Positions 9,486 through 32,879 of a stretch of DNA of 64,000 nt are shown in pieces (the first letter of the stretch is position 1; each line of letters starts with the position of its first letter). The notes beneath the pieces are model-generated. The model worked only from the letters and a program-made list of their open reading frames with translations, did not search any database and had not been told where the DNA came from. Origin of the DNA: Aliihoeflea sp. 40Bstr573 (GTDB taxonomy: Bacteria > Pseudomonadota > Alphaproteobacteria > Rhizobiales > Rhizobiaceae); NCBI RefSeq assembly GCF_024105655.1, contig NZ_JAAAMH010000012.1, positions 1 through 64,000 on the forward strand. The letters run 5' to 3'. Position numbers and translations under genes: made by a program.

Positions 9486-10910
9486 TTACCGCGAGCGGCC
9501 TCTGCCGCGATCGTGAGACGGGTTCTGGCTCTTCCGCCGCCCTTCGGCCAGAAGTTCCTGCACCCGCGCACGCCTTTCCTCGCGGCTATCCTTGGTAATA
9601 TCGGTCGCTGTATCCCTGATTTCGTCTTTACGCTGCCGGACTTGTGCTTCGCGCACATGATCTTCGGCGCGGGCCTGCCGGACAAGATCGCGGATCAGAC
9701 CGCGCCGCTCGCGCGCATCGATCATGTCGAGCGCCTTGGCGCGGCGATCGATCGACCGGTGTTCACGCGCATGGCGGCGCTCCAGCGCTTCACTCTCGAT
9801 CCTGTGACGCTCGCCGGCATTGATCGCCGGATTGCGCCGTAACGGCAGGATGACGGAGCGCAGGGCCGGTACGCGGTCAAAGAGTGCGAAGACCTTGCCG
9901 GCAACTCTGTTGAACAGCTTGCCCTGCTCTGCCTTATGGGTGGCGTGCAGGGACAGCTTTTCAGCGCGCTGGATCACCTCCAGCGCCTGCCGCTTGGCAT
10001 CGATGACCTTGCGCCGCCGCGCCTCCTGCTTCGCGGCAAGATCGGCGGCGGACTTCGCGCCACGGGCGCGCGCCGTTTCACGCAGCCGTTCGGCCAGCGC
10101 CTTGTCGTGCTCGGCCTGCTGCGCGCGGGCCTGCTCGACATCGGGCAGGTTCACCGGCGGCAGGCCCGCCAACCGCACCTTCAGCTCGCGCGTTTTGACG
10201 CCGTCGATCTGACGGGCGAGGGCATGAACATGGCCGGCGCGGTCAACGACGACATAGGCGCGGCGCTCGCCCTGGGCGAGGATATAACCGGCGCGCTCCA
10301 GCCCGACGCGGAAGGATTCCGCATTGTCGGAATTGCGGTAGAGCGCGGTGATGGCAGTGCGGCGGGCCTCCGGCGTGATGCCGCTGGCCTCCGCCATGGC
10401 CTTTTCGGCGAAGCTGATTTCGGGCGTCTTCTCGAAGCGCGCGTCGCCACGGTCTTCGGCGAGGCCGTGGGGAAGGGTAAGGCCATAGGCATGGGCCAGT
10501 TCGCGGGCGCATGTGCGCAGCTTCATGTGGTCATGGCTGATCGGGATAGCCTTCATGTTGTCGATGTCGATGCGCGACCAGACGACATGGCAATGCTCGC
10601 GCCCGTCTTTCACATGAAAGACGATGGCGCGCGGCTGCCCGTTCAGCCCGAGCTTATCCTCGATATGGTCGATGGCCGCCATGTACTGCGCCCGCGAAAG
10701 CGGGGCGGACGGATTGATCGACAGGCTGTAGAGCGGCTTCACGCACCGCGTGCCTGTCGCCACAGCCTCGTATTCGGCCAACGCGCCGTGGAGATCATCC
10801 GCGACCGTCCCGCGCACGGATGCGAGTTCGATACGCTCATTGTCGTATTCATTCGAGAGGTGCGTGGCGAGGTCGCGTCCGCCTGCGCGCTGGCTGCCTT
10901 TGAGGATCAT
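9486..10910 (-). CDS. Relaxase / mobilization nuclease (VirD2-MobA type)
   Basis: The 474-residue protein has an N-terminal HUH relaxase domain. MILKGSQRAGG starts the protein, SNEYDNERIEL resembles the tyrosine region, and DGREHCHVVWSRID carries the paired histidines of the metal site. The C-terminal 200 residues are a highly charged helical region, ending in a basic tail. It should nick oriT and pilot the strand to the coupling protein. The start overlaps the stop of the MobC-like gene by 4 bases (ATGA), so the two are co-translated. Confidence 0.88.
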   Translation of the reverse strand: MILKGSQRAGGRDLATHLSNEYDNERIELASVRGTVADDLHGALAEYEAVATGTRCVKPLYSLSINPSAPLSRAQYMAAIDHIEDKLGLNGQPRAIVFHVKDGREHCHVVWSRIDIDNMKAIPISHDHMKLRTCARELAHAYGLTLPHGLAEDRGDARFEKTPEISFAEKAMAEASGITPEARRTAITALYRNSDNAESFRVGLERAGYILAQGERRAYVVVDRAGHVHALARQIDGVKTRELKVRLAGLPPVNLPDVEQARAQQAEHDKALAERLRETARARGAKSAADLAAKQEARRRKVIDAKRQALEVIQRAEKLSLHATHKAEQGKLFNRVAGKVFALFDRVPALRSVILPLRRNPAINAGERHRIESEALERRHAREHRSIDRRAKALDMIDARERRGLIRDLVRQARAEDHVREAQVRQRKDEIRDTATDITKDSREERRARVQELLAEGRRKSQNPSHDRGRGRSR

Positions 10911-12802: not shown

Positions 12803-14428
12803 ATGGCGAATACCGGGCAGCGCAAATCGAGCATTCCGGCATGGCTCGCGGGTGCGGCGTTGTTCTGGGCGGCATCAGTCTCGCCGGAAGGTCCGGGGCA
12901 GTTGCTGTTCGGCGGGACCGGCGCGATCGTGCTGTATGGCGCGACGCGGATCATGCGCCAGAACCGGGACGAGGCGCGCAAGATCGCGGCCGCAAATACG
13001 CCGAGCGGTGTCTATGGTCAGGCGCGCTTTGCCAGCCGAAAAGATGTCGCCAAGGCCGGACTGTACGATCAGGACGGGCTATTCCTCGGCGTTCATGACC
13101 GCAAGCTGATCTTTCACAACGGCAAGGCGCACCTCCTGACCGTCGCGCCCGCACGAACGGGCAAGGGGGTGTCGGTCGTGACGCCCAACCTCTTGCACTG
13201 GCAGGGCAGCGTGTTCGTCACCGACCCCAAGGGTGAGCTGGCCGGGATGACGGCCTGGCACCGGCATGAGACGTTCGGGCAGAAGGTCTGCATCCTCAAT
13301 CCGTGGGGATTGCACGGCCTGCCGCAGCACCGGTTCAATCCGCTGGCGGTTCTGGTGGCGCTTTATGAAGATGACAACCAGCGGCGCGGCCTGACCGGCG
13401 CGGTGCGCGATCTTGCGCTCCAGCTCGTCCCGGAGCCGGAGACCGATGCGAAGAACCGGTTTTTCCGGGAGGGGGCGCGCAAGCTGCTGCGTGCGCTGAT
13501 GCTCTATCTCGCCACGCGCGAAGACCCGGCCACCAACACACTGCCAGAGCTGTGGCGCATCCTGCAATCCACCGCGCGGATGGACGATGCGCTGACCGAT
13601 ATGGCAGGCTCGGACGCGCTTGGTGGCGTCGTCGCCGACCTGGCCGAAGACCTTGCGCGGCTGAAGGCGAGCAACCCGGAGCAGTTCGGCGATTTTCGGG
13701 AAGGGGCGGTGCAGGCGGTCGATATATTCGAGCCGTCAGGCTGGCTTGCCGATTGCGTCAGCGGATCGGATTTCGATTTCGCGGAGTTGAAGAGCGGCGC
13801 GACCAGCATCTATCTCGTCATCCCGCAGGATGAAATTCAGACCAACGGCGCATGGCTGGGGCTGCTGGCGCGGCAGGCGATCGATGCGGTGGCGCGGCAG
13901 GGCGGCAATAATCAGGTGCTGTTCCTGCTGGATGAGGCGTCGAACATGGGCCGTATCCATAACCTGACCGAGAGCCTGACCGCCCTGCCGGGGTTGGGCG
14001 TGCGGGTATGGATGATCGTGCAGGAGCTGGCCGAGCTGCGCCGCGTCTATGGGCGCGAGGCCACCGCAACGATCCTGTCGCAGTCCGAGGTGGTGCAGTA
14101 TTTCGCGGTGCAGAACCACGAGCTGGCGAAGGAACTTTCGGCGGCGCTCGGCAACCGTACGGTCGTCACCAATAGCTATAATCTCGGCCGGTCTATGGAC
14201 GACGCCGCCGGAGAAAGTTTCAGCGAGACGGGGCGGCCACTGCTTTCCCCCGATGAGATACGGCAGCTTCCCCGCGATGCGCAAATCCTGTTCGTGCAGA
14301 ACAACCCGCCGATCATGGCGCGGCGCGTGCCGTTCTGGGAGGTCATCCCCTGGCAGGACTGGGTGAACACCAATCCGGTTGAGGGCGATCCGCCGACGCC
14401 GTGGCCGAAATACCGTGTGAAATACTGA
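12803..14428 (+). CDS. VirD4/TraG-type conjugative coupling protein
   Basis: The 541-residue protein has two N-terminal hydrophobic segments (PAWLAGAALFWAASV and LLFGGTGAIVLYGAT), then an ATPase domain. Walker A is APARTGKGVS at about residue 116 and Walker B is VLFLLDEASNMG at about 374; the C-terminus has RMPxxE-like TraG features. It should bring the relaxase-DNA complex to a type IV secretion channel. No channel genes lie in the window, so the partner must be supplied by another element. GGAG stands before the ATG. Confidence 0.9.
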   Translation: MANTGQRKSSIPAWLAGAALFWAASVSPEGPGQLLFGGTGAIVLYGATRIMRQNRDEARKIAAANTPSGVYGQARFASRKDVAKAGLYDQDGLFLGVHDRKLIFHNGKAHLLTVAPARTGKGVSVVTPNLLHWQGSVFVTDPKGELAGMTAWHRHETFGQKVCILNPWGLHGLPQHRFNPLAVLVALYEDDNQRRGLTGAVRDLALQLVPEPETDAKNRFFREGARKLLRALMLYLATREDPATNTLPELWRILQSTARMDDALTDMAGSDALGGVVADLAEDLARLKASNPEQFGDFREGAVQAVDIFEPSGWLADCVSGSDFDFAELKSGATSIYLVIPQDEIQTNGAWLGLLARQAIDAVARQGGNNQVLFLLDEASNMGRIHNLTESLTALPGLGVRVWMIVQELAELRRVYGREATATILSQSEVVQYFAVQNHELAKELSAALGNRTVVTNSYNLGRSMDDAAGESFSETGRPLLSPDEIRQLPRDAQILFVQNNPPIMARRVPFWEVIPWQDWVNTNPVEGDPPTPWPKYRVKY

Positions 14429-14694: not shown

Positions 14695-14720
14695 CTATTT
14701 CCCCATGACTTTTGGCGATA

Positions 14721-14738
14721 TTCTATTGTACAATAGAA
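14721..14738. promoter_or_regulatory. Perfect 18-bp palindrome, candidate operator
   Basis: TTCTATTGTACAATAGAA equals its own reverse complement. It lies in the 50-base gap between two divergent genes, in a locally AT-rich stretch unlike the surrounding GC-rich island DNA. That is what a dimeric repressor site overlapping a promoter looks like. The binding protein is unknown. Confidence 0.65.
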
Positions 14739-14747
14739 ACTTTATTA

Positions 14748-16355
14748 ATGCGCATAATGGGGATGTATTTGAGACGCGCCGTATCGTTATTGTTAGGGTT
14801 GGGCTTGATGTCCCTGTCGGCGGTGCCGGCATGGGCTGACTGCGACGTCGTACCGAACGGCACGACGATCCTTGCCCCCGAAACCCGACCGGCCGGGACA
14901 ATCATCTACAATAGCGATCACAGGATGCTTCAATATTGCGATGGCTCGGGCTGGATTGCGATGCACGGGGCCGGAACGGGCAGCGGCGGTTGCAGCAGTC
15001 CCACGCGCGATGAGGGGACGATCTTCTATAATACTGACCACCGGGTATTGCAGGGATGTGCGGGCAATGCGTGGCAGGCGATGGGTCCAATGATGGTACC
15101 GCCTGCGGCTGGCCTTGTTCATCATTGGAAACTCGATGATGCCGGTGCCGGGCCATTTGTGGACGAGGTGGGAGGCGTTGACTGTGTGGTATCCGGCGGA
15201 CCGGCTGCCTCAGTTCCAGGCCGCGACGGCACCGCCATCCATTCGGCAGGGAATAATGACGTGGAATGCGGTGTGCTGCCTGCCGCCGAAGGCGTCGCCC
15301 GCGTGACGGTCGCGGGTTGGATCAAGAAGGACAGTGCCGGGAGCACCGTCTATCTTGGGAATCACGGTGACAATACAGACGGTTTTCATATTTCGCCCAA
15401 CGGCGACGGCGAGGTTTATTTCGCGGTCGCGGCACCGGGCGGCTCGCCTCCCGGCTGGTGGGAGGCGGCAGGCTATTCACTCGATGATGCCCAGTGGCAT
15501 CACTACGTACTGGTCTTTGATGGCACTCAAAGTTCCAATGAGATGCGCCTGAAAGGCTATGTCGATGGCCAGCAAGTGGACTTGGACTTTGTTGGCACCA
15601 TTCCTTCCTCTACACCGGACGGGAACCAAACGTGGTACCTGTTGAGGTCGGTCTTCGCCGACTACACGGTCGATGATGTTCGTGTATATGACAGGCCGCT
15701 TGGCAGCGCGGAAGTCGAAAGGCTTTACTTGACCACCGGGGGTAATTCCGGCGAAGGCTGCACCGCACCGCAAGGAAACGAGGGCGCGCTTTTCTACAAT
15801 ACGCGATGCGGCGTCATGCAATATTGCGACGGGGCAAGCTGGATCGGGATCGGCAAAGCGCTGGATGGCCCGACTTGCTGCCCGAATGTCGGCGATCAAT
15901 GTAGCGACGGCACCTATTATGCCGGGGCCATCGGCGGCACGGATGTTTATGTCAGCGCCGCCGCGCATGAAACCACCACGACATGGAACAACGGCACGGC
16001 GAACTACACCTCGACCGGCTTCACCAGCACCACGGACGGGCCGGGCAATACGGCGGGGCTGGTGGCGCTGGCCGATGCCGGCGCGCCGTACGAGGCGGCG
16101 ATGTATTGCGACGGGCTGTCGGCTCATGGTTACGATGACTGGTATTTGCCGGCGATAGCCGAGCTCGACCTGATTTGGAATGCAGGTAATCCCACAGGCA
16201 ACGTTGCCGAGCAATCTGGCTATAATTATTGGTCTTCATCAGAGTCCAACGCACAAAATGCGATGATGTTCGGCTTTAGCAATGGCGTGGCTGACGATGA
16301 CTTGAAAGATGATCCCATGGAATGGGGGCGACTAATCAGGTGCGTCCGTCGTTGA
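14748..16355 (+). CDS. Secreted LamG / DUF1566 repeat protein
   Basis: This is an exported protein of about 535 residues. A signal peptide (RAVSLLLGLGLMSLSAVPAWA) is followed by three copies of a G-T/A-I/L-x-Y-N-T/S-x-x-x-x-x-x-Q-Y/G-C-x-G motif (near residues 50, 95 and 350). A LamG/concanavalin-like jelly roll (WKLDDAGAGPFVDEVG to DDVRVYDRPLGSAEV) and a C-terminal DUF1566 domain (YDDWYLPAIAELDLI, then YWSSSES) complete it. Such modules occur in bacterial surface and tip-fibre proteins. ATG codons at 14748, 14757 and 14763 are all possible starts. It is the only obvious surface protein in the island. Confidence 0.75.
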   Translation: MRIMGMYLRRAVSLLLGLGLMSLSAVPAWADCDVVPNGTTILAPETRPAGTIIYNSDHRMLQYCDGSGWIAMHGAGTGSGGCSSPTRDEGTIFYNTDHRVLQGCAGNAWQAMGPMMVPPAAGLVHHWKLDDAGAGPFVDEVGGVDCVVSGGPAASVPGRDGTAIHSAGNNDVECGVLPAAEGVARVTVAGWIKKDSAGSTVYLGNHGDNTDGFHISPNGDGEVYFAVAAPGGSPPGWWEAAGYSLDDAQWHHYVLVFDGTQSSNEMRLKGYVDGQQVDLDFVGTIPSSTPDGNQTWYLLRSVFADYTVDDVRVYDRPLGSAEVERLYLTTGGNSGEGCTAPQGNEGALFYNTRCGVMQYCDGASWIGIGKALDGPTCCPNVGDQCSDGTYYAGAIGGTDVYVSAAAHETTTTWNNGTANYTSTGFTSTTDGPGNTAGLVALADAGAPYEAAMYCDGLSAHGYDDWYLPAIAELDLIWNAGNPTGNVAEQSGYNYWSSSESNAQNAMMFGFSNGVADDDLKDDPMEWGRLIRCVRR

Positions 16356-17885: not shown

Positions 17886-18707
17886 TCAGATGCCTGTGAG
17901 ACTGACGAGCGTGTCTTGCCACCGACCGTTGCCTAGATCGTGTGGAACGTGCGGCCTGACGGCCGTGACCGGCAATTCACAAAGCTCTTCGTCAGGCATT
18001 TTCCAGATGTGGAAGACGTACTGGGTCGCGGCACTATCCGCATTTCGCCATTCGTTCCGGCTGATATGGAAGCTGTCAGCCAAAGTGCTCTTGACTTCAA
18101 TCAGGCGGCTGACAATTGCGCCATCTTGTATATCGTATGACCGGATGTCGTAGCCTAAAGAGTTGTCTTCTAAGGCGACCCACTCGGGCTCAACCGCTAG
18201 CCCCAACGATAGCAATCTTGCGCGCTCACGCTCCAACGATAGCCGTTCTGCGCTACGCGCTTGCTCCATGCGCTCCACCTCCACCAAACCTCGCGTAAGG
18301 GCGGCTAGTCGGTCCCACCACGAGACAACAGCGGCATCTGGATTCGGATCGTAAAGGCCGGCTCGCCTCAGGCATTGCAGCTCGTTCGGCGTGAGTACCG
18401 GCTTGAGACGTTCTCTGCCCGATGGCGCAAGCCTGAGCCACCAAGGCTTATGGATTTCCAGGAGCAAAAATGAAATTTCCTGTACGGATGTACGGGTCTC
18501 TCGCCAGGAGTGCTCAACACCCGCGACGGCCTTCAGATGCAATGCAGCGGGAAAATCAAGACCAGTGGAGTCGGCATCCGTCTTCAGCAAAAGCTCAACG
18601 ATGTTAGGCAGGGTCAAGTCGGGATGTCGCTCTGCTGCTCGACAAATCATATCGAGCGCAGTGTAGGCTCCGGCCGAAAAGCAGCGATCGAAGGCGATGC
18701 CGGTCAT
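17886..18707 (-). CDS. DUF3883 protein, possible PD-(D/E)xK nuclease
   Basis: The 273-residue protein is helical for its first 170 residues. A DUF3883 domain follows: N-S-L-G-Y-D-I-R-S-Y-D with D187, then L-I-E-V-K-S-T with E204 and K206, and FHISRNEW. The spacing D...E-x-K is what PD-(D/E)xK nucleases show, so this may be the cutting subunit of the operon. DUF3883 domains often sit beside helicases in restriction-like loci. Its ATG overlaps the stop of the helicase by 4 bases, which indicates coupled translation. Activity is not established. Confidence 0.75.
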   Translation of the reverse strand: MTGIAFDRCFSAGAYTALDMICRAAERHPDLTLPNIVELLLKTDADSTGLDFPAALHLKAVAGVEHSWRETRTSVQEISFLLLEIHKPWWLRLAPSGRERLKPVLTPNELQCLRRAGLYDPNPDAAVVSWWDRLAALTRGLVEVERMEQARSAERLSLERERARLLSLGLAVEPEWVALEDNSLGYDIRSYDIQDGAIVSRLIEVKSTLADSFHISRNEWRNADSAATQYVFHIWKMPDEELCELPVTAVRPHVPHDLGNGRWQDTLVSLTGI

Positions 18708-20611
18708 TCACCTTCTTCCTCGCTGTAAACTGCGCGCCCTTCTAGTTCCTCTATCAAATCGACCAGATCGTCAGGATTGATGTCATAGTCGATGGGCTCG
18801 TCCGCGTTCTCTTCGTCTAGAGCTATGCGATGCAAATCCTCGTCATCAAGAAGCTGCTGCAGCGCCCGGAGCTTTGTGCGGAGGCGCCTACTGACTGAGT
18901 GATCGACGCAGCCTAGGCCCATAGGGGCCTTAGTCTGGAAGATATGGATATTGGTCTCGGTGCCCGGCGGTAGACCCAAGCGATGGATGCGGTCAATTGA
19001 TTGAAGAAAATGGGTCGAATTATAGCTGCGATCCAGATAAATCGCATCGTGGCAAACGTGGTGCAGACTGATGCCTTCTCCCGCCGCAGCCGGGTTGGCT
19101 ATGAACACCATACATGAAGGGTCCGTCTTGAAGCGCTGGATCTTCCCTTCGCGGGTTTGAGGATCGCTGACGTCCCCAGAAGGGATCGCACCGTAAACGG
19201 TGACCGGGTTCAGCTCCGCGAGCATACGCGCCATCTGTTCAATGGTGTCAGTAAAGATGGTCCAGATCACCGTCTTGCGACCCTCAGCAGCTAACCGCCG
19301 GGCGAGTTCCTGAACATCGCACATCTTTGGTGAAGGGCCATCCTCGAGTACCTGCTGGACTATGCCGGAATGCACGCTCGGGGCATCTTCCATTATTCCA
19401 CGAAGCGCGAGGACGGGGTTAGCCGAGAGCTGGAGCAAACGCATGACGGAGCGCCGGGCTCGGACAATGTCGACACCGCTCCCCGTTCGCAACGAGCTAA
19501 GATTGCGCAAGGTCTCGTCGCGCGTAATAGCGTAAAGTGCGGCTTGCCCCCTCCCCATTTCCGACTGAATGAAATGTCGCTTGGCTGGCGGAAGTCCCAG
19601 GTCAGCCTTCGTGGTCCGCACGTAAAGATTTCCGATCACCTCCTTTGGAGGCGTCCCGCCTGCGATTCGTAACCCCAATCCGACTCCTGGCCATAGGAAA
19701 TCAAGTTGCGATTGCATGTCCGAAGGGGATTGGGGCATGGGTGTGCCACTCAAAATGTCACGCCGCTTTGGTAGGCTAGCAACGTTAAGAAGAGCAGCAC
19801 CGCGCTTAACCGCCAAACCACCCTTCATTCGATGCGATTCATCTAAGACCAGATGAACGGGATTCTGAAGCAGGTAGGAGGTTATGGTGTCCTGTACGTT
19901 GATCAACTGCTCGTAGTTGATAACAAACCGCCGTTTCCCTGACGTCAAAAGGCGCCGAATGGCATCGGCGCCTCCCGTCAGCACTGTGAACGGTTCTGTT
20001 ACCCAGTCAGGCGCGTCAGGCCCAATACACTCGCCAATAACCTCACTCCAAGCGGGAAAGGCGCTCTTCGGCCCAACCACCAAGATGTGGTCTTCTGGTT
20101 GCCGTGTTAGAAGATGCAGGGCAAATGTGACAGTTGTTTTCCCGGCTCCCGGCACAGAAAAATTTGCGCCATTAGGAAGGGACAATAGCCGCTGCAAATC
20201 GCGTATCTGAAAGTCTCTCAACGGCCGATCCCGCTTGAAGCCCAGCTCCCTCAAACGCTCTTCGATCTCGGCCGCGGATAGCTTCTGTGGCTCGGTTTTC
20301 TGGGCAGCGCGTGCTGCACGATACTGCACGAGGAACTCTTCGATACGGGTTTTCGCCTCGTCCAGCGGCCGAAATCTGAATCCCAGTCGCTTCTGCGCAG
20401 GAGCGTATTCCCGCACGAGCGCCAGAACAGACGGCCAAGGCAGGGATATAGAATCTTGCTGAAGAGCGTAGTCTTCAGTCAGCCCTAGGCTGCTCTGTCT
20501 GAGGCGGTCCCACAACGAGGTTTGAGCGGAGGCCGCATCAATCGATAGGGTGCCGCGCTGTTGATCACGGTCATACCGGATAAAAACCTCAGCTTCATTC
20601 AATCCGCGCAT
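18704..20611 (-). CDS. SNF2-type DEAD/DEAH helicase
   Basis: The 635-residue superfamily 2 ATPase has Walker A VPGAGKTT at residues 153-160, motif II DESH at 257-260 and motif III SGTPMPQ at 288-294. Motif V is in NPAAAGEGISLHHV and motif VI in QSIDRIHRLG, as in SNF2-like translocases. The first 120 residues are a non-ATPase region and the last 40 are strongly acidic (YDINPDDLVDLIEELEG). It probably tracks along DNA and delivers or activates the neighbouring nuclease. It starts 5 bases after the ParB-like gene. Confidence 0.88.
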   Translation of the reverse strand: MRGLNEAEVFIRYDRDQQRGTLSIDAASAQTSLWDRLRQSSLGLTEDYALQQDSISLPWPSVLALVREYAPAQKRLGFRFRPLDEAKTRIEEFLVQYRAARAAQKTEPQKLSAAEIEERLRELGFKRDRPLRDFQIRDLQRLLSLPNGANFSVPGAGKTTVTFALHLLTRQPEDHILVVGPKSAFPAWSEVIGECIGPDAPDWVTEPFTVLTGGADAIRRLLTSGKRRFVINYEQLINVQDTITSYLLQNPVHLVLDESHRMKGGLAVKRGAALLNVASLPKRRDILSGTPMPQSPSDMQSQLDFLWPGVGLGLRIAGGTPPKEVIGNLYVRTTKADLGLPPAKRHFIQSEMGRGQAALYAITRDETLRNLSSLRTGSGVDIVRARRSVMRLLQLSANPVLALRGIMEDAPSVHSGIVQQVLEDGPSPKMCDVQELARRLAAEGRKTVIWTIFTDTIEQMARMLAELNPVTVYGAIPSGDVSDPQTREGKIQRFKTDPSCMVFIANPAAAGEGISLHHVCHDAIYLDRSYNSTHFLQSIDRIHRLGLPPGTETNIHIFQTKAPMGLGCVDHSVSRRLRTKLRALQQLLDDEDLHRIALDEENADEPIDYDINPDDLVDLIEELEGRAVYSEEEGE

Positions 20612-20616
20612 GGACC

Positions 20617-21924
20617 TTAGCTTTTCTGGTAGGCCTGGAGGGACTCGCGAAGTTTTGTCGCTCGCTCGATCACGCTTTCGAGCTGCGGTGCAATGGAGGC
20701 GTACGTGTCGGGATCTGCCTTGCTCAAATCCACTTCCTGCAATTTTGCATTTGCCGCTTGAACAGCCGCCAGCGCTCTCCTGCCGATCTCCCCTTGTTTG
20801 TCTCGTTCAATAATGCTGTCGCAAACTGCTACGAGGGCATCGGAGACGGTATCTCGCTGCCCGGCGTCATCAAAAGCCTCAATCAAGGGTTCTAGCGTGG
20901 TTTCGCCTTCATCATCTCCAAGATCGATGTCGAGTTGATCCTCGGTCGCCTCTTCACTTTCCTGGGCGGTCAGCTCGATCCCAAGTCGATCCACCACCTG
21001 AGAAACAACTTCGTCGGTACGCCGATCGAAGCTGAAGCCATAATCATAAACACGACGGCTCAGCTTATTTCGTGAGTTACTTGAAAACAGGGACCATGCG
21101 ATCCGTCTACTCACCTCAAGGGCTTCGCCCTCCTTGTTCTCCAATGCCTTAGCAAGATCGTTGAAGAATTGCTGCCCATCCTCGACAAGCTGATACTCAC
21201 CGGGCTCCCGCAACCATTCTTTGAGGTAGAGCTCGGCTTCGGTAAGCGCGCGAGCAGCCCGCTCAACATCTTTCCGCTTCTTCTTCATCAGATCGGCAAT
21301 GTTGTCCGTCTTGCGGCCGCTCTGCATGAGCTCCTGAATCGCAAGCGACTCATTGACCCACTCGTAAGGCAACTTGGTTTCCGGCCGCATCTGCAGTCGG
21401 ACTTCAATCTCTCGCATTTCCTCTGCAGTCACGTTCTCCGGCAGTATGGCGCAATCAACGTGACTGAAATGCCGATAGCTTTGCGGATCTTCTGTGAAGA
21501 GCTCCCTGATGGCTGCTAGCCGCCGATTTCCATTGACGACCACGCCACTCGCCGAAAGAAGCAGGGGATCGCGCTGCTCTTCCGTTTTGAGCTCCTCGAT
21601 GATTGGAGAGACCGACGCCGCTCGGCCCTGTTTCGCGAAGGTGACAAGCAGGTCATGCTGCGCCTGTTGTGCAGCCTCATTCTCCAAGCCGGTGCGGAAG
21701 AATTCTGCATCCTTGCCGTGATCATGGATGAACTTCAATTGCGCCGTGCGCGTACGGTAGTTCTCCATGCGGTAGACGGGTAAACCAATTTCAAGCCGAA
21801 TGACGGGCAAGTCAGTTCTGGCATTTTGATACTCATGAAACGGATGAGTCTGCTTCGAAGCCCCCACAGCTCGCTTAATCGTCTCTTTTCGCTCCTGCAG
21901 CGCTACCGTGTTGGTTCGGTACAT
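20617..21924 (-). CDS. ParB/sulfiredoxin-fold protein
   Basis: The 435-residue protein contains a ParB-like N-terminal domain. The conserved VVVNGNRRLAAIREL at residues 128-142 matches the G-N-R-R-L-x-A motif that binds nucleotide in ParB/Srx folds. The second half is helical with an acidic segment (DQLDIDLGDDEGETTLE). Such domains act as CTP switches in ParB and as ATPase or nuclease parts in DNA modification systems such as Dnd/Ssp. In this operon it may couple DNA marking to the helicase. It is not a partition gene by context; ParA is 6 kb away. Confidence 0.72.
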   Translation of the reverse strand: MYRTNTVALQERKETIKRAVGASKQTHPFHEYQNARTDLPVIRLEIGLPVYRMENYRTRTAQLKFIHDHGKDAEFFRTGLENEAAQQAQHDLLVTFAKQGRAASVSPIIEELKTEEQRDPLLLSASGVVVNGNRRLAAIRELFTEDPQSYRHFSHVDCAILPENVTAEEMREIEVRLQMRPETKLPYEWVNESLAIQELMQSGRKTDNIADLMKKKRKDVERAARALTEAELYLKEWLREPGEYQLVEDGQQFFNDLAKALENKEGEALEVSRRIAWSLFSSNSRNKLSRRVYDYGFSFDRRTDEVVSQVVDRLGIELTAQESEEATEDQLDIDLGDDEGETTLEPLIEAFDDAGQRDTVSDALVAVCDSIIERDKQGEIGRRALAAVQAANAKLQEVDLSKADPDTYASIAPQLESVIERATKLRESLQAYQKS

Positions 21925-21938
21925 TTCCCCTCCTCTTC

Positions 21939-22400
21939 CTATTCGAACGCCACGATCATGAGCGGCACAGTGATAATTCGATCGAGTATCTTTAGCTCGT
22001 TCCAGATGCGCTCCACATTTGCAACATTGCTACCAATATTGGATGCTGCTTCTTTGGTTGGAACGGCAAGAACGGCTGCGTCAATATTCTTTCGGGCATA
22101 CATATGCTGAATTTTTAACAAGTCATAAGCGTATCGACTGATATTTCCCGTCTGTATCTGCAGAACGAGATCCGCCTTCTTCGCAAAAACTGTTAGATCG
22201 GCCTCCGGATCGACGCGCACGTCGAATGCCCACCCCTCCTTCTCCAACTCGGTCTTTACGTGCTGCCGGATATCGCTGGTGGAGCGCGGTGCCACGGCGA
22301 TTCTGGGCGCTTCAAATATGTCCGTCACCCATTCATACAGGTCGCGGTCCTTCCAGATGTCGACCCCGTGATGATGGGAATAGGTTGCAACGAATTTCAT
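21939..22400 (-). CDS. BglII/BstYI-like restriction endonuclease fold protein
   Basis: The 153-residue protein matches the pattern of BglII/BstYI-type enzymes: ADLVLQIQTGNISRYAYDLL followed by a helix and NIDAAVLAVPTKEA. In this family a Glu normally occupies the first position of the E-x-Q catalytic pair. Here the pair reads Q81-I-Q83, so cleavage may be weakened or lost. The chain is also shorter than BglII (223 aa). It overlaps the methyltransferase stop by 4 bases. It could serve as a sequence reader for the helicase complex rather than as a cutter. Confidence 0.65.
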   Translation of the reverse strand: MKFVATYSHHHGVDIWKDRDLYEWVTDIFEAPRIAVAPRSTSDIRQHVKTELEKEGWAFDVRVDPEADLTVFAKKADLVLQIQTGNISRYAYDLLKIQHMYARKNIDAAVLAVPTKEAASNIGSNVANVERIWNELKILDRIITVPLMIVAFE

Positions 22401-23278
22401 TCGCTTTCCCCGCGATCTGGTTCGTAGACCGGCTTGTTCATCGGTCGCGTCCGGAGCGTGCCGCTTCTCAGCTCGTGAATGCGCTCCCAGGCGATGTCTA
22501 CGTATGATTGGTCTAGGTCGCAGCCATAGGCGTTTCTATCGTGTTTAACTGCAGCAATTGCCGACGACCCCACACCGACGTATGGGTCGAGCACGTTGTC
22601 GCCGGGATTTGTCAGGCCGAGAACCAGCCTTTCGACAAGCCCGACCGGGAACTGGCAAGGGTGGTCGGTTTTCTCGACATGGTTCCACTTAACGTTCGGA
22701 ATCTCCCATACGTCGGAAGGATTCTTGCCAAGTGGATTGCTAGATACCTTGCCCTTGTTCGGCCCCTTAAAGTGCTTTTTGTTTGGGTATTTTGACGGGA
22801 CGCGAATGGGATCCAGATTGAAGACGTAATCGTCCGACTTCGTGAACCAGAGTATCGTCTCATGCCGTCCGGAAAAGCGGTTCTGGCAATGGAGTCCGTG
22901 TCCGAACGTCCAGACAATCCTGTTGCGCAGGAATAGTCCGTGGTTCTTAAATATGGGATAGAGCAGGATATCGAGTGGGAAAATCTCGCCGCTGTCAACG
23001 TGGTTCCCTACCTGCCAGCAAATTGATCCTCGCGGATGCAGCAGTCGCACGGCCTCCGCGATACATGCGGCCTGCTCTTCGATATAGGTCTCCCGAGACC
23101 GCTTCTTCTCGTAGGCTTTCCCGATGTTATATGGCGGCGACGTGACGATGAGCTGCATGGATTCGTCTTCCAGGCGGCGCATGTATTTCAAATTGTCCAT
23201 CTTCGCGATGTCAACATTAACGTCGCGCTGAAGCCGAGTGACTTTGGCAGTTTTTTTTACGCTAGACGATTTCGTCAT
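22397..23278 (-). CDS. Beta-class DNA methyltransferase
   Basis: The 293-residue protein has catalytic motif IV TSPPY at residues 46-50 and the SAM-binding motif I DPYVGVGSS at about 231-239. This order defines the beta class (N4-cytosine or N6-adenine). BglII-type systems use an N4-cytosine enzyme with an S/T-P-P-Y motif, so N4-cytosine is plausible. The ATG at 23276-23278 is preferred because AAGGA lies nine bases upstream; the open frame continues to 23356 but overlaps the small gene upstream. It should protect host DNA for this operon. Confidence 0.85.
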   Translation of the reverse strand: MTKSSSVKKTAKVTRLQRDVNVDIAKMDNLKYMRRLEDESMQLIVTSPPYNIGKAYEKKRSRETYIEEQAACIAEAVRLLHPRGSICWQVGNHVDSGEIFPLDILLYPIFKNHGLFLRNRIVWTFGHGLHCQNRFSGRHETILWFTKSDDYVFNLDPIRVPSKYPNKKHFKGPNKGKVSSNPLGKNPSDVWEIPNVKWNHVEKTDHPCQFPVGLVERLVLGLTNPGDNVLDPYVGVGSSAIAAVKHDRNAYGCDLDQSYVDIAWERIHELRSGTLRTRPMNKPVYEPDRGESE

Positions 23279-23477
23279 GCGGCCCGTCCTTTCTTCTTTT
23301 TCTTGTTCGGGCTGGATGACCGATGGGCTTTCCGGCATCGCTTTCAACACGATCAATATACCCCCTCATAAATTCCCGTATCACTTGTGCCGCCGGACGG
23401 TCGCTCGATCGACAGGCATCAACAAATTTGTCGCGCAGGTCGCGTTCCACGCGGATACGAAATCCCGAATCCTTCAT
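23262..23477 (-). CDS. Ribbon-helix-helix protein, putative operon regulator
   Basis: The 71-residue protein has a ribbon-helix-helix-like core, FRIRVERDLRDKFVDACRSS followed by AAQVIREFMRGYI, and a basic tail (TRKRRKD). It is the first gene of the restriction-like operon and overlaps the methyltransferase start by 17 bases. Small first genes in restriction operons often control timing of expression. The ATG at 23475-23477 is chosen because the core begins right after it. Confidence 0.6.
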   Translation of the reverse strand: MKDSGFRIRVERDLRDKFVDACRSSDRPAAQVIREFMRGYIDRVESDAGKPIGHPARTRKRRKDGPHDEIV

Positions 23478-23614: not shown

Positions 23615-24382
23615 TCACCCTGTCCCAGCCGGCCTCCGCACAAAATACGGATTGTCCTGCTCAGAGGAGCGAAGCTCGACCTTATCGACGCGGTATAGCC
23701 CACAGTTCAGGAGTTCTGCCGCGTCGAGGTCGAAGATCGCGAGGTTGAACCCTTCACCAAAATTGCTCTTATAGCCGACGCCATCGAAACCCTCCCTTTT
23801 GAAGAGCTCGGCAATGATCTGTGTCGGCACATAATCGGCGGTATCATCCCCGCGGGTCATCGGTTCGGAGAAAGCCCGATCGATGTGCGCCCACACGGCC
23901 TCTGTCCGCTTTTCCTGCGCCGGCTCCTCCAGAAACAGCGGCTGTCGATCATGACCGCGGGCGCAGTCGATGATCCTCAATTGACGAAGGAGCTTGAACT
24001 GGGCCACCGACACATACGAGCCGATCCACGGTCGCACTTCGGCAATGGCGGTGTCTTTTCGGTTGGCCAGATAGAGACAGGGGATCCCGCGAGGATTCGC
24101 CCGACCATCGGAGGCGCGATCCCGGAGCGGCCTCATGCGCGACGGCGGGTGGGCGCACGGGACTTCTACGGCGGCATCGCCTTCTCCGTCCTCACGCCAG
24201 CTATGGCCGAGCTGTGATCGCCAAAGAACCGTGCCTTCGTTCAAATCCACCTGGCGGTCGCGACTGGTGGCCAATACCGCCTCCAGGAATGCCTCAACCT
24301 CTGGCGTTCTGACAAATCGAAGTTGGCGGCTGACCGCCGCCCTGAAATCCCAATAGCTGCGCCATGATCGGAAAGCGGTCAC
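23615..24382 (-). CDS. RES-domain toxin-like protein
   Basis: The 255-residue protein fits the RES family: W-R-S-Q near residue 54, then G-R-A-N-P-R-G-I-P-C-L-Y-L-A and T-A-I-A-E-V-R-P-W at about residues 93-118. These carry the Arg and Glu of the NAD-binding pocket. RES toxins degrade or phosphorolyse NAD+. The usual partner is an Xre/DUF2384 antitoxin, which is not present. Upstream, 42 bases away, is a HigA-like Xre protein, so the three genes higB-higA-RES may form one operon. Confidence 0.75.
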   Translation of the reverse strand: MTAFRSWRSYWDFRAAVSRQLRFVRTPEVEAFLEAVLATSRDRQVDLNEGTVLWRSQLGHSWREDGEGDAAVEVPCAHPPSRMRPLRDRASDGRANPRGIPCLYLANRKDTAIAEVRPWIGSYVSVAQFKLLRQLRIIDCARGHDRQPLFLEEPAQEKRTEAVWAHIDRAFSEPMTRGDDTADYVPTQIIAELFKREGFDGVGYKSNFGEGFNLAIFDLDAAELLNCGLYRVDKVELRSSEQDNPYFVRRPAGTG

Positions 24383-24424
24383 TCGTTCGATAGTCCCCTG
24401 TGCCTCTGGGCCTTACCAGCGCTC

Positions 24425-24742
24425 TCAGCCCGGTTGCGGGTGGCTACTGCCGGGTGCATGCGCCGTTCTGGTAGGAAGATGCCGGATCGCATCGCCAGTC
24501 TCCTGATCGGCAAGCGCCAGCTCGTGCTGGGCTTGCAGGTTGAGCCAGAACTGCGGATCGGTGCCGAACCAGTGACCAAAGCGCAGCGCCGTATCGCCGG
24601 TGATGGCGCGCTTGCCGGCGATGATCTGTGAGACACGGTTTGGCGGCACATCGATCTGACGCGCGAACTCGGTCGGCGTGATGTCGGCAGCTTCCAGCTC
24701 GTCCTTGAGGACTTCGCCGGGGTGAACAGCTCTCATGAACAT
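24425..24742 (-). CDS. higA: HigA-type antitoxin (Xre family)
   Basis: The 105-residue protein starts with the HigA signature HPGEVLKDELEAADITPTEF, then a helix-turn-helix (VPPNRVSQIIAGKRAITGDT) and the L-x-F-G-H-W-F-G-T-D-P-Q-F-W-L-N-L-Q segment. It binds HigB and represses the operon. It lies 17 bases after higB, the toxin-first order typical of higBA. The stretch after about residue 90 is basic and not conserved. Starts at 24742 or 24736 are equally possible. Confidence 0.9.
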   Translation of the reverse strand: MFMRAVHPGEVLKDELEAADITPTEFARQIDVPPNRVSQIIAGKRAITGDTALRFGHWFGTDPQFWLNLQAQHELALADQETGDAIRHLPTRTAHAPGSSHPQPG

Positions 24743-24759
24743 GGCCTGATCTCCTTTCC

Positions 24760-25044
24760 TCAGTGATAGTCCACGATTTCAACATTGTGCGGTCCGGGTT
24801 CGCCGGCCGGCCACTCGAAGCAGATGCGCCATTGCTGATTGATGCGAATGGAATACTGCCCGGCACGATCGCCTTTCAGGGCCTCCAGCCGGTTTCCCGG
24901 CAGAGCGCGGAGCGTATCGAGCGACGGGGCGGCATTGAGGACCGATAGCCTGCGTGCGGCTTGGGCCTCAAAACCTTGAAAGGCTTTGACGAAGTCCCCT
25001 GCCGCAAACTGCTCCGTCTTCTTATCGCGATAGCTCTGAATCAT
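24760..25044 (-). CDS. higB: HigB-type mRNA interferase toxin (RelE family)
   Basis: The 94-residue protein has the HigB pattern: MIQSYRDKKTEQFAAG, then LNAAPSLDTLRALPGNRLEA and YSIRINQQWRICFEW. These are the conserved basic and aromatic residues of the ribosome-dependent RNase fold. The start at 25044 is set by the motif; the frame runs further upstream without coding sense. A sigma-70 type promoter with an overlapping palindrome lies immediately upstream. Confidence 0.92.
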   Translation of the reverse strand: MIQSYRDKKTEQFAAGDFVKAFQGFEAQAARRLSVLNAAPSLDTLRALPGNRLEALKGDRAGQYSIRINQQWRICFEWPAGEPGPHNVEIVDYH

Positions 25045-25052
25045 GCTCCCTG

Positions 25053-25083
25053 ATAATACATTAGATTGACGCTGTACGTCAAT
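25053..25083 (-). promoter_or_regulatory. higBA promoter with overlapping palindromic operator
   Basis: On the minus strand TTGACG (25077-25082) and TATTAT (25053-25058) are separated by 18 bases. The interrupted palindrome ATTGACG-CTGTA-CGTCAAT (25065-25083) covers the -35 box. That is the expected place for HigA autorepression. Confidence 0.75.
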
Positions 25084-25116
25084 CGTCAATTTTCTGCCGC
25101 TTGCTTGCAAGCGACC

Positions 25117-25176: not shown

Positions 25177-26094
25177 TTACGCGGCGACCTTCTCGGGTGC
25201 GGTTTCAGTGGCTTTGGCTTCGGGCTGCAAGCTAGTTAGATAATCAGCAGCACGCTGCGCATGGGCGGCTGCGGTGAAGACCGCCCGCTTGTCATCCTTC
25301 AGCACCTTCAGCCATGAGGCGATATAGCTGGCATGATCGGCGCGTGGTTCCGGGGTAATATCCAAGTCAGCCGACAAGAAGGCCGCGCCCAGCTCGGCGA
25401 CCAGTTCCTCTTTCGCATATCCTTCATCGCCCCACTTCTTGCGGCCAAAGCTGCGATCCAGCCGGCTCGGGTGGCGCGTCCAGTGGGTCAGCTCGTGCGC
25501 GAGGGTCGCATAGTAGCTTTGCGCATCGCGGAACGCTTCAAACGGCGGCATCTGCACGCGATCCTCGCCTATGGCATAGTAGGCCTGATTGCCGCCATGG
25601 CGGATATCGGCACGAGTCGCGGCAAAGAACATCTCTGCCTTCTCGATGCGCGCCACGGGGTCAAGGGCCGGCTCCTGCAAGGCGTAGAAATGAGCCGGCA
25701 GCCCGTCCACCTGCTCGGCGTTGAAAACCGTATAAGCCTTCATGAACGGTATGTTGTGTTCGACATCCTCGCCAGTGTCGGCGTCCTGCTCGGTTCTGGT
25801 GATGGTGTTGGCATAGACAACGGGACTCCCCTTCTCGCCTTTGCGTACCTGTCCGCCCAGTTCCTGCGCCTGCTTGTAGGTTAGCCACAGCGGTGCGGCG
25901 AAGCCCTTTTCCACGGCGGACGCCCAGAGCATCAGGATATTAATTCCACGATAGGCGACGCCATTGGCGCGCAGCGGTCGGGTGATGCGTCCGGCGGCAT
26001 GTTCGGCGTTCCACGGCTTGAGCCATGGCCGCACGCCATTTTCCAGCTCGGCCACGATCTGATCGGTCACACGTTGGTAAATATCGATTTTCAT
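25177..26094 (-). CDS. ardC: ArdC-like antirestriction protein
   Basis: The 305-residue protein has the ArdC N-terminal ssDNA-binding domain (DIYQRVTDQIVAELENGVRP, PWLKPWN, YRGINILMLW) and a C-terminal zincin-like metallopeptidase with HELTHW and the downstream EELVAELGAAFL helix. ArdC proteins protect incoming single-stranded DNA from host restriction during transfer. The ATG at 26092-26094 has AAAGGAGAAAGG upstream. A hairpin lies further upstream (26115-26134). It suits a mobilizable island that enters new hosts as single strands. Confidence 0.9.
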   Translation of the reverse strand: MKIDIYQRVTDQIVAELENGVRPWLKPWNAEHAAGRITRPLRANGVAYRGINILMLWASAVEKGFAAPLWLTYKQAQELGGQVRKGEKGSPVVYANTITRTEQDADTGEDVEHNIPFMKAYTVFNAEQVDGLPAHFYALQEPALDPVARIEKAEMFFAATRADIRHGGNQAYYAIGEDRVQMPPFEAFRDAQSYYATLAHELTHWTRHPSRLDRSFGRKKWGDEGYAKEELVAELGAAFLSADLDITPEPRADHASYIASWLKVLKDDKRAVFTAAAHAQRAADYLTSLQPEAKATETAPEKVAA

Positions 26095-26655
26095 TTGCCT
26101 TTCTCCTTTGAAAGCGGGTTGCGCATGCAACCCGACTAGCCAGAGCGGCAATGAGCGGGGTGGCGGCGGTCAGGGCCGCCGCCGGGGAAAGGGGGATCAC
26201 CCGGCCTGCACAAACGCAGTGCGGAAGGCTGGGGAACGCCCCGGCGGCGTCCGCAGCGTCAGCGGAGGATGAAAGCCTTGACGGCCAAACGGGGCCGCAG
26301 GCCCCTCTTCCAAACGCAATGAAGCGGGCAACGCCCGCACCGCCGGCCGAAGGCGGGGCAAGCCCGCCCGGCCCTCTTCTTCACGCAAGGGATAGTTACC
26401 GCATGGCCGAGACCCGACACCTCGGGGTTCGGGGCGCCGCGGCGCCTATAGCCCGGTCCGGCCTGCCGGATGCGCACGCAGATTCTGACTTCAGGGGAAT
26501 TTCAAATCCGACGACGGCGCACAGCCCGTCCCCTTCTCTTCCACCAGTTATCCTCGACCGCCAGCCATGGCGATCCATTCCGGTGCCGATTGTGTGTGTG
26601 GGCAAGCACGGAATGGCTCTGATGACCGGGGCCTCGTCAACAAGGAGGAACGAAG
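26095..26655. other. ardC leader and 500-base gene-free stretch
   Basis: CGGGTTGC and GCAACCCG (26115-26134, 4-base loop) form a hairpin or operator 20 bases before the ardC ribosome site. The rest is GC-rich with no gene I can support. Codon structure is absent, although long open frames exist on both strands. Confidence 0.45.
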
Positions 26656-30004: not shown

Positions 30005-30649
30005 CTATGCGGCCATACGGTCACTGGCTGTGTGGAAGTATCCCTGATCCAGCTCGATTCCCGCATAGGCACGGCCTACGGATCGGGCGGCGGCAAGCGT
30101 TGAGCCGGAGCCGCAGAAGGGGTCGAGCACCAGCCCGCCTTCCGGGCAGAATGCCTCGATCAGGGGCGTCAGTGAGGCGACGGGCTTTTGCGTCGGATGT
30201 AGGCGGTTTCCGGTATAGACCCAGTCGATCACATCGGCGGGTGGATTGTCCGGCAGGGCGGGACGGCCCTTCGCCAGCACGTAAGCCGATTCGTGCGTGT
30301 AGCTGACGAAGCGCGCTTTCGAGGCGTAGCGTTTGCGGAAGACGATGTGACCAACGATGCTGAAGCCCGCTGCACGCCATGCGCTCATGAAGCGGTCGGT
30401 CTGGGTCCAGCCGTAGAAGCTGACGCAGAGGCTGTCGTTCTTTAGCACCCGGAACATCTGCTTGGTGGCCGGCTCCAGCCAGTCGGCGTTGTCGTCGTTG
30501 GCGAGGCTGCGGCCCGTGCGATCCTTGAAGCGAACCAGATAGGGCGGATCGGTGAGGATGAAGTCCACCGAGCGGGCGGGCATTGCTGCCATCAGATCGA
30601 TGCAATCGCCCTGGGCGATCGTGTTGCGGGGGAAAGTGGTGTGTTTCAA
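30005..30649 (-). CDS. Beta-class adenine DNA methyltransferase, orphan
   Basis: The protein of about 214 residues has DFILTDPPYLVRFKDRTG (motif IV DPPY) near the start and LDPFCGSGSTLAAARSVGRA (motif I) near the end, the order of beta-class N6-adenine enzymes. There is no restriction gene beside it. It may protect the island from host restriction or control its replication. TTG at 30647-30649 is preferred because ACAGGAG lies six bases upstream; an ATG at 30677-30679 has no such site. Confidence 0.85.
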   Translation of the reverse strand: MKHTTFPRNTIAQGDCIDLMAAMPARSVDFILTDPPYLVRFKDRTGRSLANDDNADWLEPATKQMFRVLKNDSLCVSFYGWTQTDRFMSAWRAAGFSIVGHIVFRKRYASKARFVSYTHESAYVLAKGRPALPDNPPADVIDWVYTGNRLHPTQKPVASLTPLIEAFCPEGGLVLDPFCGSGSTLAAARSVGRAYAGIELDQGYFHTASDRMAA

Positions 30650-30901
30650 GGCGAACTCCTGTCGTTCAAGCGTTTTCATGACGCTGACAGGGCTGGCCGG
30701 AGAGGGCGGCGCTGCATGGCCCACACGGGAGGCATCGCCGAACGGAGCGGGCAGGCCATTGCGGCGGCGGCACGGGCAGACATAAGCGGCCGGAAGAAAA
30801 CGCGGCGGCTGGCGGGTGCAAGAGACAGCGCCGCTTCATGCAACGCAGAGTGACCAGCTTGTGGGCAATCGGCTTGGCGAGCCGTGCGCCATGGTCACGT
30901 C

Positions 30902-32832: not shown

Positions 32833-32879
32833 CCCCCAGATTCGTAGTCTGGTGCTCTATCCAGCTGAGCTACGGGCGC
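32803..32879 (-). tRNA. tRNA-Arg (anticodon ACG)
   Basis: The minus strand folds into a cloverleaf. The acceptor arms are GCGCCCG/CGGGCGC with discriminator G and encoded CCA. D-loop AGCTCAGCTGGATAGAGC, anticodon stem CCAGA/TCTGG with loop CTACGAA (anticodon ACG), and T-arm AGAGG-TTCGAAT-CCTTT complete it. Length 77. The island recombinase ends inside its 3' part, so the tRNA is the integration site and remains intact. Confidence 0.97.

Follow-up and report, generated by a model that had tools for sequence, protein, structure and literature searches.

The first 64,000 nucleotides of contig NZ_JAAAMH010000012.1 from Aliihoeflea sp. 40Bstr573 (the window, read on the forward strand) carry on the minus strand an operon in which the genes for a DNA methyltransferase and a protein resembling the type II restriction endonucleases BglII and BstYI are followed by those for a ParB-like protein, an SNF2-type ATPase and a DUF3883/NOV_C protein. 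The question raised by this locus is what an endonuclease-like protein does in such company. The answer favored here, with a probability of about 0.55, is that the genes constitute an ATP-dependent defense operon of the restriction-modification (R-M) type with divided labor, in which a catalytically dead reader, a clamp, a motor and a separate nuclease would each perform one part of the task. Five of the genes form a conserved unit, and the catalytic glutamate of the BglII-like protein has been lost from every copy linked to a ParB-like gene. The genes, in their order along the minus strand, are:

23262–23477, minus strand: ribbon-helix-helix (RHH) protein, 71 amino acids; weak Pfam match to RHH_9 (E 0.0048, below the cut-off)
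22397–23278 (ATG start), minus strand: DNA methyltransferase with a TSPPYN motif; Pfam N6_N4_Mtase, 1.5e-51
21939–22400, minus strand: BglII/BstYI-fold protein, 153 amino acids; Pfam Endonuc-BglII, 1.9e-5 (24.9 bits, cut-off 26), and predicted AlphaFold2 (AF2) fold
20617–21924, minus strand: ParB-CTPase-fold protein, 435 amino acids; Pfam ddrB-ParB, 0.014 (weak), and predicted AF2 fold
18704–20611, minus strand: SNF2-type superfamily 2 ATPase, 635 amino acids; Pfam SNF2-rel_dom, 1e-8, and Helicase_C, 1.7e-6
17886–18707, minus strand: DUF3883/NOV_C protein, 273 amino acids; Pfam NOV_C, 3.4e-13

From the RHH gene to the DUF3883 gene, neighbors at the first two junctions overlap by 17 and 4 bases, those at the next two are separated by 14 and 5 bases, and the last pair overlaps by 4 bases; a longer alternative TTG start of the methyltransferase gene lies at 23356. 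The 4-base overlap of the methyltransferase and BglII-like genes provides the linked methyltransferase that is expected of a type II R-M system. An original prediction, made from the sequence alone, had described six close-packed minus-strand genes at 17886–23477, which the open reading frames (ORFs) and domain calls confirm; of its domain labels, the BglII-like and ParB-like calls, weak in Pfam, are backed by the predicted folds, and the RHH call stays weak.

Structure prediction places the BglII-like protein in the BstYI/BamHI/BglII fold family. The AF2 model of the window's protein, for which 38 ParB-linked sequences were aligned, reaches a pLDDT (predicted local distance difference test) of 96.1, and the top 16 places in its Foldseek comparison are taken by BstYI, OkrAI, BamHI and BglII alone (E 1e-10 to 1e-6). 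A profile of the family, in which one stand-alone relative (L006) is included, aligns with BstYI over the full length (2.9e-24) and with BamHI in part (5.9e-5), and the QTGN stretch of the protein aligns with ETGN of BamHI. All 74 copies of the ParB-linked set adjoin a ParB-like gene, and in none of these rows (70 distinct, window included) is there an acid in the column of the catalytic Glu, which corresponds to position 81 of the window's protein. Gln (36) and Cys (29) are the commonest residues there, the window having Gln81, so that the intact catalytic site of a classical type II endonuclease is absent at this column. Other positions are constrained in the same rows, Q83, G85 and D93 being present in 74/74 and N86 and R89 in 73/74.

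Relatives that stand alone, with no ParB gene in the locus, have an acid in the Glu column in 27 of 27 rows (22 Glu and 5 Asp; 26 distinct). This control was drawn from a Pfam search of 385 genomes of the class, which gave 37 places, 30 of them taken as loci L189–L218. Sixteen of the 30 were aligned to the family profile, namely two ParB-linked copies (one being the window's own) and 14 stand-alone copies, and the latter together with L006 gave 15 rows with Glu in 15/15; L203 has the same sequence as L218, and L200, a fragment, does not extend into the Asp region. Among the other 14 loci, which have no ParB, SNF2 or NOV_C match, two fragments (L210 and L217) were left out of the scoring and 12 reach the motif, with Glu in seven and Asp in five in the Glu column and Asp in the other catalytic column in all 12. 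In the Asp region, columns 69–73 hold no acid in any of the 74 ParB-linked rows; in the first stand-alone set, 14 rows have a residue at column 72, which is Asp in 12 of them. The catalytic Glu is therefore lost in all ParB-linked copies, and the protein is predicted to be a catalytically dead reader of DNA sites. A search for a second BglII-like copy in the host genome found none at E up to 10, and the idea of an active copy elsewhere in that genome was rejected on this result.

The same pattern is seen in a second, unrelated family. Proteins of about 288 amino acids precede the ParB gene in Rhizobium (L004), Kozakia (L005), Azospirillum (L003), Mesorhizobium (L183) and a viral contig (L102), and the Rhizobium protein matches no Pfam family. 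Stand-alone copies have an annotated cytosine methyltransferase gene directly upstream in eight of the nine scored (the record of the ninth, L177, is unannotated), a position that, judged from gene order, would be expected of an endonuclease gene. The nine (L004, L174–L179, L181 and L182) come from 18 plasmid records that match the stand-alone form; those left unscored include Kozakia (gene in two pieces), Sphingomonas naphthae (insertion sequence inside) and five others, and among the 18 the copies in the Mesorhizobium and Azospirillum records are of the form linked to ParB. A D-Y...I-[ED]-L-K signature is kept in 9/9 stand-alone copies, and both of its acids, which are probably catalytic as part of a D...[ED]xK arrangement, are replaced in 5/5 ParB-linked copies (V or I for D, I for E/D); the K is kept in 14/14. 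The Rhizobium plasmid L004 carries both forms together. In Kozakia (L180) the stand-alone gene is split into two ORFs, its methyltransferase gene remaining and the ParB-linked copy open, and in Sphingomonas naphthae (L184) a shortened stand-alone gene lies beside an IS256-family transposase gene, again with the methyltransferase gene remaining.

The unit to which the reader belongs is widely conserved. With M, B, P, S and N denoting the methyltransferase, BglII/BstYI-like, ParB-like, SNF2 ATPase and DUF3883/NOV_C genes, and with ORFs labeled by means of iterated profiles, the order in 80 genome loci was M-B-P-S-N in 44, B-P-S-N in 17, M-P-S-N in five, P-S-N in 10, P-S in two and S-N in two, the loci being the best 80 of at least 518 relatives found by a helicase-profile scan of 84,980 species genomes. 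Under slightly wider rules P and S adjoin in 79/80 loci and N is next in 76 of these 79, and a methyltransferase gene lies within 6 kb, on either strand, in 44 of the 46 loci whose flanks extend 5 kb or more in each direction. Eleven phyla are named in the record titles, several of them from metagenome bins and possibly misassigned. Because the five-gene order recurs in 44/80 genome loci, chance grouping is excluded, and the check set by the original prediction, whether homologs are co-located elsewhere, is answered affirmatively. A less biased search, with the ParB-like protein, gave matches in seven of 385 genomes of the class, the host's own included, and five of the six non-host matches adjoin an SNF2 gene; in 398 genomes of the phylum a profile search gave nine matches, of which four are strong (own included) and five weak.

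Five of the six genes are thus a conserved unit, M-B-P-S-N, and the six-gene operon first proposed is instead a five-gene system, since the RHH gene is not conserved. No good relative of the RHH protein was found among the small ORFs upstream of the methyltransferase gene in other loci; some of these are RHH-like and others helix-turn-helix-like by eye, and CopG-type genes lie upstream of a 5-methylcytosine methyltransferase gene in two stand-alone R-M loci. The RHH gene was rejected as a core gene on the grounds that upstream regulators vary between loci, and its product is probably a variable operon regulator outside the conserved core.

The remaining core proteins retain their key residues. 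The best solved relative of the methyltransferase is M.RsrI (1.4e-37), and the PP of the SPPY motif is present in 91/91 aligned rows with letters. In the SNF2 protein, the Walker A lysine K158 is found in 174/174 and the DExH-box D257 in 175/175 rows with letters, more distant viral helicases being among these rows, and the protein is predicted to be a DNA translocase. D187, E204 and K206 of the DUF3883/NOV_C protein are invariant in 103/103 rows (window plus 102 profile matches), suggesting a PD-(D/E)XK nuclease effector. The tally for the DUF3883 protein, together with the loss of Glu from the reader, backs the original prediction, which had assigned site reading to the BglII-like protein and cutting to the DUF3883 protein.

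The ParB-like protein was modeled by AF2 with a pLDDT of 90.5, and Foldseek matched the model with Noc, ParB, KorB and Spo0J at E of about 1e-3, with target template modeling (TM) scores of up to 0.60 over whole or part chains. In an hhalign comparison with the host's own ParB, NGNRRLAA was aligned with AGERRWRAA (E 1.9e-4, probability 47%). The Box II-like GNRR motif extends from G132 to R135, R135 being present in 116/116 rows with letters, and N55/R57 and E174/Q178 are read by us as Box I-like and Box III-like, respectively. Both the modeled fold and the Box II-type motif (GxRR) are those of the ParB-CTPase fold, and the protein is predicted to be a nucleoside triphosphate (NTP)-gated DNA clamp or adaptor. 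It had been suggested at first to move on DNA; this fold makes a clamp more probable than a motor. According to the accessible text of PMC12704722, the ParB-CTPase fold is widely reused by binders of CTP, ATP or GTP, and the nucleotide is not reliably predicted by sequence or AlphaFold3.

ParB-SNF2-DUF3883 is a module that is also found with quite different restriction systems. At 113 loci with adjoining P and S genes the preceding reader is BglII-like in 73, RE_BanI-like, a third type, in eight, type III in four and of the second family in three, with a methyltransferase gene only in seven and other arrangements in 18; L003, counted under the last because the distance rule did not pick up its ORF, also belongs to the second family and brings this to four loci. 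At the type III-linked viral loci L112, L113, L115 and L124 a Mod/Res pair is followed directly by ParB-like and SNF2 genes. A DUF3883 gene was not found in L112, L115 or L124, and L113 ends at the SNF2 gene; Res may take the place of the DUF3883 protein as nuclease at these loci.

In the mechanism proposed, the N6/N4 methyltransferase would mark a short palindromic sequence in the host's own DNA, probably one with a GATC core, as suggested by analogy with the specificities of the fold relatives BstYI, BglII and BamHI. The BglII/BstYI-fold protein, with its catalytic Glu lost and its Asp probably so, would sense the absence of methylation, bind unmethylated copies without cutting them and so act as specificity subunit, and would recruit or load the ParB-fold protein, an NTP-gated clamp, into a putative complex. 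The SNF2 ATPase would travel on the DNA together with the clamp, and the cut would be made by the DUF3883/NOV_C protein. Such a system presumably protects against phages or plasmids, and the operon is, as first proposed, restriction-like.

Several observations weigh against this reading. The catalytic positions of BstYI, BglII and BamHI on which the scoring rests are those that we take them to have. Column 68 is Asp in 22 of the 74 ParB-linked rows, the window among them, and the stand-alone copies L213 and L214, which have no Asp in column 72, also carry Asp at column 68; a displaced Asp may therefore be present in those 22 copies, and the case for loss of the Asp is weaker than that for the Glu. 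The BanI-like readers keep an acid, Asp, where two BanI-family proteins have Glu, with FQ changed to YS; with these two proteins for comparison, the contrast seen in the other two families is not clear here, and the result speaks against, or at least not for, a general rule of dead readers. Seven of the 113 P-S loci have a methyltransferase gene but lack a recognized reader, and another 18 lack both at the position examined, five of the 18 (L034, L059, L083, L106 and L114) beginning inside or at the ParB gene. The 80 loci were chosen by likeness to the window's helicase and are biased toward the window, one ParB relative (G159) has no SNF2 neighbor, and in eight of 14 Bacillota loci the methyltransferase-like gene lies downstream on the opposite strand.

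Three other explanations have to be set beside a dead reader that directs a clamp, motor and nuclease. That the methyltransferase and an active, small BglII-like endonuclease are an ordinary type II pair lying beside an unrelated ParB-SNF2-DUF3883 set is very improbable, given that no acid occupies the Glu column in 74/74 ParB-linked copies against 27/27 with an acid among stand-alone ones and that order and tight spacing are kept in 44/80 loci, even though a Sphingobium plasmid does carry a stand-alone pair of a methyltransferase (66% identical) and a BglII/BstYI-type protein, and the window's protein retains the Asp at column 68. The dead protein could instead be an antagonist or chaperone that protects unmethylated sites of the host, or controls the operon, until methylation has been completed, the trio recognizing invading DNA in some other way. 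Catalytic loss alone gives no reason for the retention of the protein, and the trio loci without a recognized reader suggest that the trio may recognize DNA unaided; acid-less proteins of two endonuclease families nevertheless occupy the same place directly upstream of the ParB gene, and we regard this explanation as unlikely.

Somewhat more doubtful still is the view that the trio is a self-standing defense or plasmid-interference system that often lands beside R-M genes in islands and is not functionally coupled to them. Its occurrence with BglII-like, BanI-like and unnamed endonuclease families, and that of the ParB-SNF2 pair with type III R-M genes, are as this view would have it, as are L079 and L086, which have no methyltransferase within 6 kb by two profiles (a neighbor in L086 has a weak Pfam N6_N4_Mtase match). 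Against it stands the methyltransferase gene in 44 of the 46 well-flanked loci, and reader types follow the SNF2 tree, the labels on 108 rows requiring 15 changes compared with 33.6 in shuffles and a value as low arising in 0/200, which looks like long-term partnership; the tree is a quick one with L003 relabeled by hand, its deep joins are unsure because of long branches, and near-copies also cluster the labels. The dead-reader reading can be carried further, and it is possible, though we put it forward tentatively, that these operons represent a distinct type of restriction. The ParB-SNF2-DUF3883 trio would then be portable and aimed by whichever dead endonuclease accompanies it, at least two unrelated families having been recruited independently, with an NTP-gated sliding clamp loaded at unmethylated sites; on some plasmids such a system would form a second layer behind a living enzyme from the same family.

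Comparison with known systems is in keeping with the earlier statement that the operon matches no named one, which holds for PADLOC (2023 release) and the searchable literature. No PADLOC system fits the operon; its matches were considered as complete lists for each protein except the methyltransferase, for which the best 25 of 69 families were used. The methyltransferase and BglII-like protein are called as generic type II methylase and endonuclease, the SNF2 protein cross-matches ZorD, DrmD, DpdE and BrxH, and the DUF3883 protein cross-matches PDC-S36, TmtA and PD-T4-1. None of the operon proteins reached a curated NCBIfam cut-off. As regards DISARM, neither DrmB (DUF1998) nor DrmC was found in the operon proteins by PADLOC (for the methyltransferase, among the matches listed), and the matches of the SNF2 protein to the DrmD and DrmA models are weak (best 3.3e-7) and cover part of the protein. 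No PglZ/BrxC-type protein of BREX appears in the Pfam or PADLOC matches listed, only weak BrxH helicase cross-matches; no ZorA or ZorB of Zorya is among the PADLOC matches listed, the SNF2 protein cross-matching ZorD at 1.7e-11; and no sulfur-modification gene of Dnd/Ssp, which we take to be of DndC/DndD or SspB/SspC type, is among those listed for the operon proteins. The gene set was not recognized in the literature searched, bioRxiv and most subscription papers lying outside its scope, and it may have been named elsewhere. Relative to the endonucleases BglII, BstYI and BamHI, the reader has the same fold but is shorter (153 amino acids compared with 203 in BstYI) and has lost the catalytic Glu.

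The six operon proteins have no Pfam match, at E up to 10, to a PLD or B3 domain, which we take to be the nuclease and reading domains, respectively, of the R protein of CglI and NgoAVII. These systems, in which a methyltransferase, an R protein and a helicase-like ATPase communicate along DNA before cleavage (accessible text of PMC5737866 and PMC4267653), are the closest in logic and share with the operon a three-part ATP-dependent R-M organization; their R protein, however, is an endonuclease, whereas the operon would have a dead type II reader, a separate DUF3883 nuclease and an added ParB-fold protein. Closest in parts are the SNF2 operons of the MORC/paraMORC group and a DUF3883-SNF2 fusion. 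MORC/paraMORC operons are modular R-M operons with methylases, Vsr, diverse nucleases and a superfamily 2 helicase, in some cases SWI2/SNF2, and are defined by a GHKL ATPase; the accessible text describes no ParB protein or dead reader (PMC2292703), and the operon proteins have no GHKL match, so that membership was rejected on Pfam domain content. A 611-amino acid ATP-binding protein encoded at the Rhizobium locus matches AAA/SMC-type families and no GHKL family. DUF3883 has been described as a novel restriction endonuclease domain, and an operon in which it is joined to an SNF2 helicase also encodes R-M components and a HEPN protein; this is a different operon, for which no ParB-fold or BglII-like gene is named in the accessible text (PMC3710099). 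The main text of the ParB-CTPase survey mentions neither DUF3883 nor SNF2, and its accessible text does not describe the operon context (PMC12704722). As far as the accessible text of these sources goes, no compared system has both a ParB-fold protein and a separate DUF3883 nuclease alongside a type II endonuclease that is dead.

The genomic setting is in keeping with a mobilizable island, as had been proposed. On one side of the operon are a relaxase gene (9486–10910) and a type IV coupling protein gene (12803–14428), and on the other are an ArdC anti-restriction gene (25177–26151) and a VirC1/ParA-like gene; a tRNA-Arg gene lies at 32803–32879. The ArdC-type gene, on the minus strand, is about 2 kb from the restriction-like operon, and the two apparently share one element. 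The minus-strand interval 23615–25110, immediately upstream of the operon, contains a toxin-like gene with a RES domain (Pfam RES, 2.2e-17) and a gene for a HigA-type antitoxin (TIGR02607, 4.3e-24), accompanied by a short ORF that may encode a toxin. A separate second N6_N4 DNA methyltransferase is encoded at 30005–30724 on the minus strand (Pfam, 2.9e-34), and a Laminin_G_3 and Lcl_C protein at 14712–16355 on the plus strand, between the coupling protein gene and the operon. A similar layout, consisting of two hypothetical genes, an SNF2 gene and a hypothetical gene with a cytosine methyltransferase gene, is present in Streptococcus phage Javan191 (L238).

The proposed division of labor is directly testable, because apparently living and dead relatives of the second reader family are encoded on a single Rhizobium plasmid. 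If the interpretation is correct, these operons would represent a new restriction architecture, in which recognition is performed by a pseudo-endonuclease and cutting is passed to a clamp-motor-nuclease module. Dead reader endonucleases could then be found by a simple rule, a ParB gene downstream and the catalytic Glu absent, and the ParB clamp principle would extend beyond chromosome segregation to DNA defense.

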